45,474 nt of DNA, taken from IMG/VR virus record IMGVR_UViG_3300036945_000687, positions 1 to 45,474 of that record. One strand, written 5' to 3'. Each line of letters begins with the position of its first letter. Position 1 is the first letter of the stretch. Source of the DNA: a virus. The notes under the pieces were generated by a model. That model worked only from the letters and a program-made list of their open reading frames with translations, searched no databases and was not told where the DNA came from. Made by a program: the position numbers and the translations under genes. Positions 27,169 through 45,474 of this stretch are shown here, one piece after another.

Positions 27169-27452
27169 GCGATTGGCAGGCAGGTGACTTGGCATTGTGT
27201 GTGAACGATGGCGTTCTGCATTGTGGCCACGGCAAACACGACGCATCACGTAGCGTAAAAAGCGGCGCAGTCATTCGAGTGGACGCAATCGGCAAGGCAT
27301 CAGTTTTGGCAGGATATGGCGACTGCGATTGTGATGTGCTGATTTTTGGCAGCGGACAGGGATTGTCTATGCGCTTCGTCAAAATCACCCCCGGCCACAA
27401 GATCACCGGCTCCGAGGTTGACCAGAAACAGCCGTGGAAGGTGGGGGTATGA
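27165..27452 (+). CDS. Hypothetical early protein, Cys/Gly-rich
   Basis: 95 residues, beta-rich: W-Q-A-G-D-L-A-L-C-V-N-D-G-V then S-G-A-V-I-R-V-D-A-I-G-K-A-S-V-L and G-L-S-M-R-F-V-K-I-T-P. Resembles small SH3-like beta barrels. Overlap ATGA with the genes on both sides. No known name. Confidence 0.5.
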   Translation: MSDWQAGDLALCVNDGVLHCGHGKHDASRSVKSGAVIRVDAIGKASVLAGYGDCDCDVLIFGSGQGLSMRFVKITPGHKITGSEVDQKQPWKVGV

Positions 27453-27766
27453 CTGCGGAACGCGCGAAGGTGGACATGCTCACCGCAGACGAAGCCGCCG
27501 AACTGCTAGGCATCAGCGAACGCACATTGCGGAAGCTACGCCAGCGCGGGGAAATCCGCTATATTGCCATCAGCGACCGGATCATCCGGTACTTTGCAGA
27601 AGACTGCGAAGCCTTTCTACAAGCCAAACGCCGGACAGATACACCATGCCAACGCCCATCAAAGACAAACGTTCGCCTAACTGGCAGTATGACTTCCAAA
27701 GGGGCGGGCGGCGGTTTTATGGCTCGACGGGAACGGCTAATAAGCGATCGGCGCAACGCTACATAG
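27449..27766 (+). CDS. Excisionase-type helix-turn-helix protein
   Basis: 105 residues from ATG 27449. Residues 7-60 hold an HTH_17 pattern: M-L-T-A-D-E-A-A-E-L-L-G-I-S-E-R-T-L-R-K and then Q-R-G-E-I-R-Y-I-A with I-R-Y-F-A-E-D. This fold is shared by excisionases and other DNA-bending proteins, and the position directly before integrase supports an excisionase role. Its last 40 residues overlap the integrase start by 121 bases in another frame. Confidence 0.68.
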   Translation: MTAERAKVDMLTADEAAELLGISERTLRKLRQRGEIRYIAISDRIIRYFAEDCEAFLQAKRRTDTPCQRPSKTNVRLTGSMTSKGAGGGFMARRERLISDRRNAT

Positions 27767-28752
27767 ACAATCTGGTCAATGAGATTGCCGAAGGCCGGAA
27801 TGGCAAAACACATATCAGCCTGAATTTAGCCTGCGATGCACTATGGCAGGACAAGGCGCAGTTTGACCGATCGTGCAGGACGACGGAATACCAGCTTGCG
27901 AACCTGATCGAAGGCCTTGGCGCAAATAAGGCGCTGGCAGATTTAACGATCGCAGACTTTAACCACTACATCGCCAAGCGCCGCGCAAAGGTGAGCAACA
28001 CCAGCGTCAACCGTGAACTGGAATTGGCCCGCCGCGTTTGGAAACATGCCGCCCGCAGCCACATGGTTAGCCCGATCGAATGGGGCGCGCTAATGCTAAA
28101 AGAGCCAGAGGAGCGCGTGCGGGAACTATCCGCCAAAGAGGAGGAGCGCCTTTTCGCCACACTTCCCGAATACCTGAAGCCGGTCGTTGAATTTGCCATC
28201 CTGTCTGGCCAGCGCCGATCGGCAATTGTCAGTTTGCGTTGGGATAAGATCGACTGGAACAACGGCGAGGCGGAAATCGTCAACAAAGGCGGCGGGTTCC
28301 ACAAATTCCCGCTATCGCCGGTCATGGTGCAAATCATCCTGGAGCAACCCAAACTGGACCATTGCCCGTTTGTATTCACCTACGTTTGCGATCGATCGGC
28401 ACCAAAGCGCGCTGATAGGCCGCACAGGGTCAAGGGAGAGCGTTACCCATTCACGCCGCAAGGATGGAAGCGCAAATGGGTAAAGGCGCTGAAAGACGCT
28501 GGAATCGCAGATTTCCGCTTCCATGACTTACGCCACACCAGCGCCACACGGATCATTCGCGCATCAGGCAATCTGAAGGCCGCGCAAAAGCTGCTTGGCC
28601 ACACTGATATTCGGACAACCGCCCGATATGCGCACGTTGGCATGGATGACCTACGCGAATTGATGAGTGACACGGAGTCACGGAATAGCACCGGAAAGCG
28701 TTTGACGGATAAGCCGAAAACAGGCAATATCCCTAGCGTTACAGAGGAGTGA
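27646..28752 (+). CDS. int: Tyrosine-type integrase
   Basis: 368 residues from ATG 27646. Catalytic residues are visible: R190 in L-S-G-Q-R-R-S, H293-x-x-R296 in H-D-L-R-H, H319 in L-L-G-H-T and Y328 in A-R-Y-A-H-V. An N-terminal arm-binding and core-binding part precedes them. It would catalyse integration at tRNA-Pro(UGG), whose 3' half lies 8 bases after its stop. The long overlap with the HTH gene suggests coupled synthesis. Confidence 0.92.
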   Translation: MPTPIKDKRSPNWQYDFQRGGRRFYGSTGTANKRSAQRYIDNLVNEIAEGRNGKTHISLNLACDALWQDKAQFDRSCRTTEYQLANLIEGLGANKALADLTIADFNHYIAKRRAKVSNTSVNRELELARRVWKHAARSHMVSPIEWGALMLKEPEERVRELSAKEEERLFATLPEYLKPVVEFAILSGQRRSAIVSLRWDKIDWNNGEAEIVNKGGGFHKFPLSPVMVQIILEQPKLDHCPFVFTYVCDRSAPKRADRPHRVKGERYPFTPQGWKRKWVKALKDAGIADFRFHDLRHTSATRIIRASGNLKAAQKLLGHTDIRTTARYAHVGMDDLRELMSDTESRNSTGKRLTDKPKTGNIPSVTEE

Positions 28753-28756
28753 GAAC

Positions 28757-29410
28757 ATGCTTTGGGACCAGAGGGTCGTAGGTTCGAATCCTATCTCCCC
28801 GACCACTTATCCAACAGTTTCAAGCACTTCCGAAGCGCCGGACGCGGAACGGAAGGGAAACGCACGGAAACGCGCAACCGTTATCGGGCGCAACAGCACC
28901 GGAATAATCACGGACGCCGCTGCTCAATTGGAAGCAGCGTGCGCCGCTGAGACTTTCGAAGATGAAAACGACTGGCTTGCTTGGCCGGAAAAAGGATGGG
29001 GCACGCCGTTCTTTTGCCCCGTGCGATGGCTTGCCTATACCGAGCGGTTCAGCGTCGATCTGAACACGCCCGCCCCTGCGCTGCCATCCTACTTTCCCGA
29101 TCCTATCCCATCCGATCGGTGGGCGCGTCGGTGTGAATCGGGTCTGGCTGATTACACATACTTCGCAAAGAACAAGCTGGACGGCACAATCAAGATAGGC
29201 CGGTCAAAGCAGCCATCTTATCGAATCAGCACGCTCCACAATGACGCGCGCGGGATGCCTGCTTCTAAATTGGCGATCGTGCCGAATGGTGAACTTGAGC
29301 GCGCTTATCATCGCTTGTTCGCCCGTTGGCGCGTCGAAGGTGAATGGTTCGCGCCCCATCCCGAAATTCTCGCAGAAGTCGAGCGCATCAAATCGGAGTA
29401 CCCGCAATGA
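28757..29410 (+). CDS. GIY-YIG/T5orf172-like nuclease, start spans attP
   Basis: 217 residues. The C-terminal half has Y-T-Y-F-A-K-N-K-L-D-G-T-I-K-I-G-R-S then R-I-S-T-L-H-N-D-A-R-G and E-G-E-W-F, as in GIY-YIG-like T5orf172/MUG113 domains. The ATG at 28757 follows an AGGAG site inside the integrase stop region, but its first 16 codons are the tRNA-Pro-derived core. On integration at the core, the start would be separated from the rest. No internal ATG precedes the domain; a TTG or GTG start is possible. Confidence 0.65.
   Translation: MLWDQRVVGSNPISPTTYPTVSSTSEAPDAERKGNARKRATVIGRNSTGIITDAAAQLEAACAAETFEDENDWLAWPEKGWGTPFFCPVRWLAYTERFSVDLNTPAPALPSYFPDPIPSDRWARRCESGLADYTYFAKNKLDGTIKIGRSKQPSYRISTLHNDARGMPASKLAIVPNGELERAYHRLFARWRVEGEWFAPHPEILAEVERIKSEYPQ
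28761..28805 (+). other. attP core: 3' half of tRNA-Pro(UGG)
   Basis: From the anticodon loop TTTGGGA (28761-28767) through the T-arm GGTTCGAATCC to the acceptor end CCCCGACCA the sequence matches a bacterial tRNA-Pro 3' half, with encoded CCA. The C1-G72 type acceptor and G37 are tRNA-Pro marks. The 5' side of the anticodon stem is missing, so it is not a tRNA gene but an integration core restoring the host gene. Confidence 0.85.
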
Positions 29411-32723: not shown

Positions 32724-32803
32724 CAGCCGGTCTAATCGTCGGCTTTGTCCTGTTCTGGATTCCAGCAATCCTTGCCCGCATAATTTGGAGGTATCTGCGA
32801 TGA
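32720..32803 (+). CDS. Tiny membrane protein
   Basis: 27 residues: mostly one hydrophobic helix (G-L-I-V-G-F-V-L-F-W-I-P-A-I-L-A) and a basic end. ATGA overlaps on both sides suggest it is real. Confidence 0.45.
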   Translation: MTAGLIVGFVLFWIPAILARIIWRYLR

Positions 32804-33000
32804 CAGGTATTGTTTCGCCAAACCAACTAAAGTGGGACACTAACGCTCTTTGGTGGCCCATCAAATGGGGAGATCACCCGCTCTGCGGAGATGACCCTTG
32901 CGATGACTTGCACCCGCTTACATGGGTTCACACCTTGCAGCAGTGCCGCGACGAACGCCGCCCCAAGCCGTATTATACGGCGATAAGGTGGAGGCCGTGA
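32800..33000 (+). CDS. Hypothetical Trp-rich protein
   Basis: 66 residues, [12 protein letters not shown] and [11 protein letters not shown]. Six Trp in all. It starts in the previous stop and ends in the next start. No family recognised. Confidence 0.48.
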
Positions 33001-33407
33001 CCAACCTATCCGAAAAGCTGGAGCAATTGAGCGCGGCTGCGACGGAGGGGGAGTTGCACCACTGTGGCTGGGGCGACGGATCAACCCAAATGGGCATGAC
33101 CAACATCTTTAACGAGCATTCCGAAGTCCTGCTTGTCGAATGCATACCAGAACCGGACGCGGCCTTTATTGTGGCGTTGTGGAACGCCTACCGCACCGGC
33201 CAGCTTGTCGCAGTGCAGGCGGATGAACGCAAATTCAAACTTGGCGACCGCGTGACCAAGACCAAGGGCAGCAACTGGACCGGCCTTGTTGTCGGCTTCT
33301 ATTCCACCAGTCTGACACCGATTGGCTATTGCGTGGAAAGCGAAACTGAGCGGGGCAGTGTGCAATTGTATCCGCAAGCAGCACTAGCCGCGAAGGGGGT
33401 TGCGTGA
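32997..33407 (+). CDS. Protein with type II (DfrB/R67-like) dihydrofolate reductase domain
   Basis: 136 residues from GTG 32997. Residues 79-131 match the R67 SH3-like fold closely: [20 protein letters not shown], then L-T-P-I-G-Y-x-V-E-S-E and G-S-V-Q-L-Y-P. Key catalytic positions of R67 are kept (K88 as Lys32, Q123 as Gln67, Y125 as Tyr69); Ile68 is Leu124. The first 75 residues are an extra domain with no known match. R67 works as a tetramer and is not inhibited by trimethoprim. Reductase activity is inferred only. Confidence 0.78.
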
Positions 33408-33583
33408 TGAGTGATAACGTCATCCAAGCCCATTTCGGCGGCGCGCCTTTTCCGCTACTTGCAGAAGTTGAAGAAGCGGTTTGGGGCACGATCATGCAAT
33501 ACGAGGACCGCGTTCCAGTGATGGGTGTTATAGGTGTCCTTAGGTTGATTGAGCACAGGCTTTTAAGTGATGTTCATTCCTGA
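33407..33583 (+). CDS. Last early gene, hypothetical
   Basis: 58 residues starting in the preceding stop (TGATG). Q-A-H-F-G-G-A-P-F-P-L then helical E-V-E-E-A-V-W-G-T-I-M. It ends the rightward gene run. Unknown. Confidence 0.5.
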   Translation: MSDNVIQAHFGGAPFPLLAEVEEAVWGTIMQYEDRVPVMGVIGVLRLIEHRLLSDVHS

Positions 33584-34212: not shown

Positions 34213-34288
34213 GCCGTTGTAGCTCAGATGGTAGAGCGCCTGCCTTGTAAGCAGGATGTCCGGGGTTCGATTCCTCGTTGCGGCTCCA
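34213..34288 (+). tRNA. tRNA-Thr (anticodon TGT)
   Basis: 76 bases with D-arm, anticodon stem CCTGC/GCAGG (34239-34243, 34251-34255), loop CTTGTAA with anticodon TGT at 34246-34248, T-arm with TTCGATT, and encoded CCA. The acceptor stem has one T-T opposition and two G-U pairs. It decodes ACA. Phage tRNAs often help late gene translation; here it sits between the converging operons. Confidence 0.9.
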
Positions 34289-44715: not shown

Positions 44716-45467
44716 CAGCCGAAGCCCTTCAGAATACCGCCGCCCAATGTGCCGAGCGCGTTGCCGAACACGCTTTGCTGTGACAGTGCCGCATTGGCCC
44801 GCGCATCGCTTGCCGCTGTGTTGCTTGCCGCGATGGTGCCCGCGTAATTGGTGGAGACGCCAGCCAATGCACCCGCCGCCGTAAGGCCGACACCCTGTTG
44901 ATTAGCGACACCGCTCGCCCACTGGTTGCGATAGCCCGATTGCAGATTTTGACGGTAAGTCTCTAGCGCCTTCATGGCCGCGCCGGATTGCACCGTGCCC
45001 TTGCCAGCGTAACCGGAGTTTACCGCGTTGCCGCCTTCCTGTTGCTGGAAAGCGTAATCCGAATTCCCGATGTAATTGGCGAATGCAGATCGGCTATCGG
45101 CTTTAGGCTGCGTGACGGCAGGCGTGGGGGTTGGCGTGAAATTCGGAGGCGTATAGAACCCGCCAAAGCTGGACCCGCTGCCAAAGTTAAACCCGCCGTA
45201 AGCCGGAGCCGTAGCGGCAGGCTGCACCGTCTGCGTTGGTTGTTCAATCCCGTAGAAGTCGTTTAGCAGCGCGCCCGCATTGGTGCCGGTCTGCACGAAT
45301 GGCGAGAGGACGCCTTTGTTTTCGCCGTAAATCTCTTTGGTGAGCGCGTTGTTATTGGCCGCAGTTGCCGAAGCGTCCGCAGATGCCTGCTTGGCAGCAG
45401 AGTTCGACTTGGAAGCCGAGATAGCAGCGCCACCGGCTATCAATCCTGCACCAGCAACAATCACCAT
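44715..45467 (-). CDS. Ejection (DNA transfer) protein, complete copy (P22 gp7 position)
   Basis: 250 residues. Gly/Ala hydrophobic start (V-A-G-A-G-L-I-A-G-G-A-A-I), then a Gly/Pro-rich variable linker (residues about 84-120), and a conserved C-terminal part with N-S-G-Y-A-G-K-G-T-V-Q-S-G and Y-R-N-Q-W-A-S-G-V-A-N-Q-Q-G-V-G-L, typical of gp7-type proteins. If the ends join, the GNAT gene precedes it in the operon. The linker differs from the partial copy at 1-390. Confidence 0.75.
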   Translation of the reverse strand: MVIVAGAGLIAGGAAISASKSNSAAKQASADASATAANNNALTKEIYGENKGVLSPFVQTGTNAGALLNDFYGIEQPTQTVQPAATAPAYGGFNFGSGSSFGGFYTPPNFTPTPTPAVTQPKADSRSAFANYIGNSDYAFQQQEGGNAVNSGYAGKGTVQSGAAMKALETYRQNLQSGYRNQWASGVANQQGVGLTAAGALAGVSTNYAGTIAASNTAASDARANAALSQQSVFGNALGTLGGGILKGFG

Positions 45468-45474
45468 GCCTAAT
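45217..45474. repeat. Terminal repeat, right copy (imperfect)
   Basis: Partner of 140-397, ending on the last base of the window; about 11 mismatches in 258. Upstream in this copy the sequence is unrelated to the left end. Confidence 0.85.

Follow-up and report, generated by a model that had tools for sequence, protein, structure and literature searches.

The virus contig analysed here in its entirety (45,474 nucleotides; hereafter the window) encodes a 136-residue protein whose C-terminal half is, with near certainty, a member of the DfrB family to which the R67 dihydrofolate reductase (DHFR) belongs. On balance, we lean slightly towards regarding this protein as an R67-type phage accessory protein that would assemble into a tetramer around a central pore and supply reduced folate in place of a FolA-type enzyme. 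The positions of the gene, of its domain and key residues, and of the surrounding features are collected in Table 1.

Table 1. Features of the window that bear on the DfrB-domain gene and its phage context.
Feature	Position	Strand	Basis
Tyrosine integrase	27346..28752	+	phrog_1, 9.7e-59
Probable attP core immediately after the integrase, resembling the 3' end of a tRNA gene	28764..28805	+	Sequence; no whole tRNA called there
Upstream ORF, 66 aa, GTGA overlap with the start of the DfrB-domain gene (32997-33000)	32800..33000	+	Without family match
Gene for the DfrB/R67-domain phage protein, 136 aa, GTG start	32997..33407	+	Open frame and domain matches
Extension ahead of the domain (residues 1-77), with helices predicted at 4-17 and 52-76	32997..33227	+	AlphaFold2 model; low confidence between the helices
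DfrB/R67-like SH3-type domain, residues 78-130	33228..33386	+	Profile matches and model compared with R67 2rk1
Codon of residue 88 (K88 = R67 K32)	33258..33260	+	Role from PMC9835603
Codon of W94 (R67 Trp38, dimer-dimer interface)	33276..33278	+	Role from PMC9835603
V122-Q123-L124-Y125 (VQLY; R67 active-site V66-Q67-I68-Y69)	33360..33371	+	Sequence and alignment
59-aa ORF that closes the operon, with a second possible start (ATG) at 33407	33404..33583	+	Without family match

Profile, sequence and structure comparisons agree on the identity of the domain. The initial annotation had read it as a type II DHFR retaining the equivalents of Lys32, Gln67 and Tyr69, and this is borne out: Pfam family PF06442 (DHFR_2) matches residues 77-130 with an E-value of 1.5e-19 and a score of 70 bits (cut-off 25), phrog_31682 matches the protein at 3.6e-22 and R67 chains of the PDB match the domain at 2.4e-15 to 1.8e-14, all far outside what chance would give, the identity to R67 being 58.5% over 53 residues. 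Lys32, Trp38, Val66, Gln67 and Tyr69 of R67 correspond to Lys88, Trp94, Val122, Gln123 and Tyr125, while Ile68 is replaced by Leu124, leucine being a minor natural variant at this position (weighted frequency 0.07), and the residue equivalent to His62 is a glutamate, as it mostly is in phages. In a single-chain AlphaFold2 model the domain has a pLDDT of about 94-97 and fits R67 (2rk1) with an rmsd of 1.0 Å over 57 residues and a Z-score of 12.1, well ahead of the second-best fold (8.7). Against NCBIfam model NF000331, which is named for trimethoprim-resistant DfrB, the protein scores 77.3 bits, below the cut-off of 137; the gene is therefore a relative at the level of the domain rather than one of the known resistance genes.

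The region preceding the domain had been described as an extra N-terminal domain of 75 residues. An extension of very nearly that size, about 77 residues, does exist, but it is an orphan predicted to consist of two helices around a low-confidence stretch. No relatives of these 77 residues were found in viral contigs and no credible ones among INPHARED phages. A Pfam CdiI_N match for this part of the protein (0.012) lies below the cut-off of that family and was ignored, and the proposal of an Ead/Ea22-like N-terminal segment found no support from Pfam or PHROGs.

The reading frame is open throughout 32997-33407 on the plus strand, and the GTG start is preceded by a Shine-Dalgarno-like stretch, AAGGTGGAGG. 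The GTGA overlap at the beginning of the gene and the GTGATGA shared with the 59-residue ORF at its end (33404-33410) amount to a tight-operon layout, in which, as first proposed, the gene is the second-last, a single ORF separating it from a tRNA-Thr gene at 34213-34288. The operon lies between the integrase/attP region and the tail genes, where small plus-strand ORFs form a run with the DfrB-domain gene close to its end; a search for a sigma-70-like promoter found none. The phage-borne tRNA-Thr (TGT) just past the operon shares 91% of 65 aligned bases with the tRNA-Thr genes of P1-like phages. At the other end, the first ORF of the run (28757-29410) adjoins attP and carries a T5orf172/MUG113 domain; because the ORF as listed extends back over the tRNA-like 3' end, translation probably begins further in.

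The contig also encodes a terminase, a portal protein, a primase/helicase, a single-strand annealing protein, an exonuclease and a tyrosine integrase. Sequences of 42 bases similar to the probable attP core occur, with two mismatches, in two alphaproteobacterial genomes, and since this tRNA 3'-end-like sequence adjoins the integrase, the contig would represent the free or circular, non-integrated form of a temperate phage. An exact copy of the contig's terminal 60 bases (45415-45474) lies at 338-397 and the first 337 bases are absent from its end, which suggests a circular genome with a contig start that is an alternative path or an assembly artefact. The nearest terminases are those of phages of Sulfitobacter, Rhizobium and Paracoccus, with that of a Microcystis phage equally near, and a comparable terminase was found in only one of the 385 genomes of an Alphaproteobacteria sample. 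Among 39 records with related terminases the DfrB domain is present in only one, in a copy only 44% identical to that of the window; the gene is therefore an accessory one.

The domain belongs to a large phage family. A single alignment-based scan of IMG/VR yielded 272 confirmed relatives, and the domain was found in 26 INPHARED records and at 53 loci of bacterial genomes; in a search of Sphingomonadales it occurred in only one of 147 genomes, that of the seed itself. Of 120 distinct viral proteins, 54 consist essentially of the domain alone, whereas 40 carry N-terminal, 16 C-terminal and ten both-sided extensions, start codons having been taken mechanically, so that some of the extensions counted may be shorter. 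The 50 N-terminal extensions sort into 38 mutually unrelated groups, and no relative of the window protein's N-terminus was found among them; the closest domain, 81% identical (locus L066), likewise follows a different N-terminal region. The domain is thus freely shuffled among phage proteins. Its partners include a MazG-type pyrophosphatase (phrog_5658, E-value 2e-55) and, as a weak match, a Lar-like restriction-alleviation segment. The domain is either fused to the MazG-type nucleotide pyrophosphatase or placed shortly before it in one group of phage contigs (L043:4111-4791, L044:5419-6063, L054, L056 and L063). A rhizobial/sphingomonad group comprises short relatives, mostly of 70-74 residues, with the sequence KKGRASWRGKIVGWYRTD... 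(L299, L300, L341, L343-L346, L348 and L350); one of its members resides on a Ti plasmid, beside a Tn3 transposase and a recombinase.

Conservation is concentrated in the pore. Across 119 distinct domains of viral origin (effective number 46.5), residues Lys32, Trp38, Gly40, Val43, Gly44, Tyr46, Gly54, Gln67 and Leu74 (R67 numbering) are invariant, in contrast to the freely variable residues 31, 33 and 34, and the mean entropy is 0.30 bits at ten pore positions against 1.56 elsewhere (permutation p 1.5e-4); positions 36, 46, 51, 64 and 65 are counted among the pore positions on the basis of R67 structures. The pattern of the first scan itself held VQ[IL]Y, and the conservation of VQIY was judged by another scan, whose pattern covered the W38-T48 region instead: 53 of its 61 members have VQIY, the rest having VQLY, VQVW or CQLW, apart from two insertion-shifted sequences and a truncated one. 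Purifying selection acts on the domain in these relatives, the median pairwise dN/dS being 0.22 (317 non-independent pairs).

By homology to R67, four copies of the window protein would tetramerise through the domain into an R67-type pore, an arrangement we consider highly probable, with the helical N-terminal arms hanging outside. Such a pore would place dihydrofolate next to NADPH and reduce the former, unblocked by trimethoprim; measurable DHFR activity would be the probable outcome of an assay. The native job may then be to replenish the reduced folate needed for making nucleotides in the infected cell, replacing a FolA-type enzyme. This last step is less sure, and whether DHFR activity is the function for which the protein was selected we regard as somewhat doubtful.

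Thymidylate synthase (TS) makes dihydrofolate and, provided that the domain works as a DHFR, phages that make their own dTMP could use DfrB instead of FolA. Among 50 DfrB-bearing records, 11 have a gene of the TS family, several of them weak or hydroxymethylase-like, and none has a FolA-type DHFR (0/50, and hence 0/11 of those with TS), whereas in 45 viral contigs picked for TS alone, and unmatched for host or phage type, FolA-type DHFR occurs in 22 and DfrB in none. The difference (0/11 versus 22/45) has a Fisher p of 0.004, or 0.03 with only the six independent strict ThyA cases, and points to DfrB taking the place of FolA in some phages. The association of the domain with a MazG-type nucleotide pyrophosphatase in one lineage also counts in favour of this role. 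The TS and DfrB genes were not adjacent in the cases checked. Furthermore, 39 of the 50 DfrB phages, and likewise the window, have neither TS nor FolA-type DHFR, and ThyX was found in none of the 50, so that the folate link explains a minority of cases at most. The folate role is accordingly the leading but not established explanation, and its main rival is another phosphate-bearing ligand.

According to that rival, which we consider unlikely, the R67-like tetrameric pore binds or traps a different small phosphate-bearing molecule (a nucleotide, an NAD-type cofactor or an immune signal), and dihydrofolate reduction is a by-product of bringing dihydrofolate and NADPH together in one pocket. We know of no native DfrB ligand other than these two, and the distribution of FolA favours folate use; on the other hand, the Lys32 and VQxY pore is kept even in phages without a folate enzyme, and the presence of the domain in a single one of the 39 terminase sister phages is what would be expected of a moron or counter-defence gene, though the neighbouring gene families listed included no defence genes. 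R67 lacks a catalytic acid and has been called poorly evolved (PMC9835603), and among small phage proteins Tad2 and Acb4 are precedents for tetramers that trap nucleotide signals (PMC12043709; PMC11722364). By analogy with the latter, a nucleotide-signal sponge was considered for the window protein, but the known sponges have other folds.

It is less probable still that the domain is mainly an oligomerisation module that tetramerises its partner, with the selected function lying in the partner region. Its placement at the N-terminus, at the C-terminus or in the middle of many unrelated proteins, with 38 unrelated groups among the N-terminal extensions, and the invariance of Trp38 would fit such a role, but in 54 of the 120 distinct viral proteins little or nothing is attached to the domain. 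A pure scaffold would also need no invariant Lys32, unless this residue contributes to stabilising the tetramer, as mutagenesis of R67 indicates that it may. Finally, a decaying or passenger gene without function in this phage, as could be imagined from its absence in most sister phages and the lack of relatives of its N-terminal part, is very improbable given the intact frame, the Shine-Dalgarno-like site, the tight overlaps with both neighbours, the retained key residues with a conservative I68L exchange and the purifying selection on relatives.

The initial annotation also raised the possibility that the gene reveals a natural reservoir of R67-type resistance. This is plausible in so far as phage domains are far more diverse than the resistance genes: the canonical DfrB proteins of bacterial genomes form one tight cluster of 17 distinct sequences, with an effective number of 1 at 80% identity against 46.5 for the viral domains, the two sets having been sampled differently. 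Moreover, two phage copies reach 79% (L193) and 77% (L210) identity to R67, on contigs that also hold genes for phage tails, integrase, DNA polymerase and ligase. A tree of the domain that includes phage and clinical DfrB (167 rows, 53 columns) has strong support for only nine of 163 inner branches and is compatible with transfer either way, and a published study favours Burkholderiales chromosomes as the original hosts of dfrB (PMC11662351). A 67-residue gene annotated as DfrB (WP_257792703) is found in class 1 integrons of Pseudomonas plasmids, in the orientation opposite to the cassette array (L298:3477-3680 in NZ_MF144194.1 and around L017:5001-5156 in NZ_CP143525.1). Its product is 64% identical to R67 (DfrB1) and 77-79% identical to phage domains, and it is possibly a second capture of the domain as a cassette. 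That phages constitute the ancestral DfrB pool from which resistance genes were taken more than once, as the DfrB1 type and, separately, as the WP_257792703 type, is a tentative and rather unlikely proposal.

The origin and the natural job of R67/DfrB are open questions (PMC9835603; PMC7725336). The large phage family with its unchanged pore offers many natural variants for assay, the pattern of TS and FolA provides a concrete hypothesis for the natural job of DfrB, and the integron cassette WP_257792703 is a candidate capture from a phage-like source.

Phage-encoded multi-domain DfrB homologues with conserved Lys32, Trp38 and VQIY, forming tetramers and conferring trimethoprim resistance, were described in 2023 (PMC9835603). 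The idea of a phage reservoir and of multi-domain phage DfrB is thus already published, and the gene of the window is a further, ordinary example. In that study, Escherichia coli became resistant to trimethoprim with DfrB-H4 from a Vibrio phage and with three further DfrB-H proteins; DfrB-H5 was a tetramer with DfrB1-like kinetics, DfrB-H4 conferred resistance yet had no activity detectable in lysate, DfrB-H3 from a Pseudomonas phage was not visibly expressed, and the authors considered that DHFR activity may be adventitious in DfrB ancestors. The assayed Vibrio phage homologue is probably our locus L006 (NVP1030O_25, with a DNA methylase about 2 kb away), the domain of which is 74% identical to that of the window. 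With DfrB-H3 to DfrB-H6, which come from phage or mobile-element contexts and several of which confer trimethoprim resistance, the window protein shares the SH3-like domain, Lys32, Trp38, the absence of Trp45 and the fusion to unrelated extra regions; it differs in belonging to another phage, in its own orphan N-terminus and in VQLY instead of VQIY, and is known from sequence.

With R67/DfrB1 (PF06442, NF000331) the protein has in common the fold, the 58.5% identity, Lys32, Val66, Gln67 and Tyr69, and Trp38, but it is encoded by a phage, carries a 77-residue extension where R67 has a short disordered N-terminus, and contains the replacements I68L, W45F and H62E. The chromosomal dfrB genes of Burkholderiales (PMC11662351) likewise represent the same domain family outside clinical plasmids; these are mostly stand-alone proteins of 78 residues that cluster close to DfrB1, whereas the phage domains are far more diverse. 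A further survey also reports phage-encoded relatives, its lytic-phage candidates being 50-72% identical to known DfrB; it found eight dfrB candidates and focuses on dfrA, and is not known to treat the domain partners of dfrB (PMC12466917). Relative to this literature, the present analysis contributes the size of the phage family, the census of domain shuffling, the pattern of FolA exclusion and the closeness of an integron cassette to phage domains.
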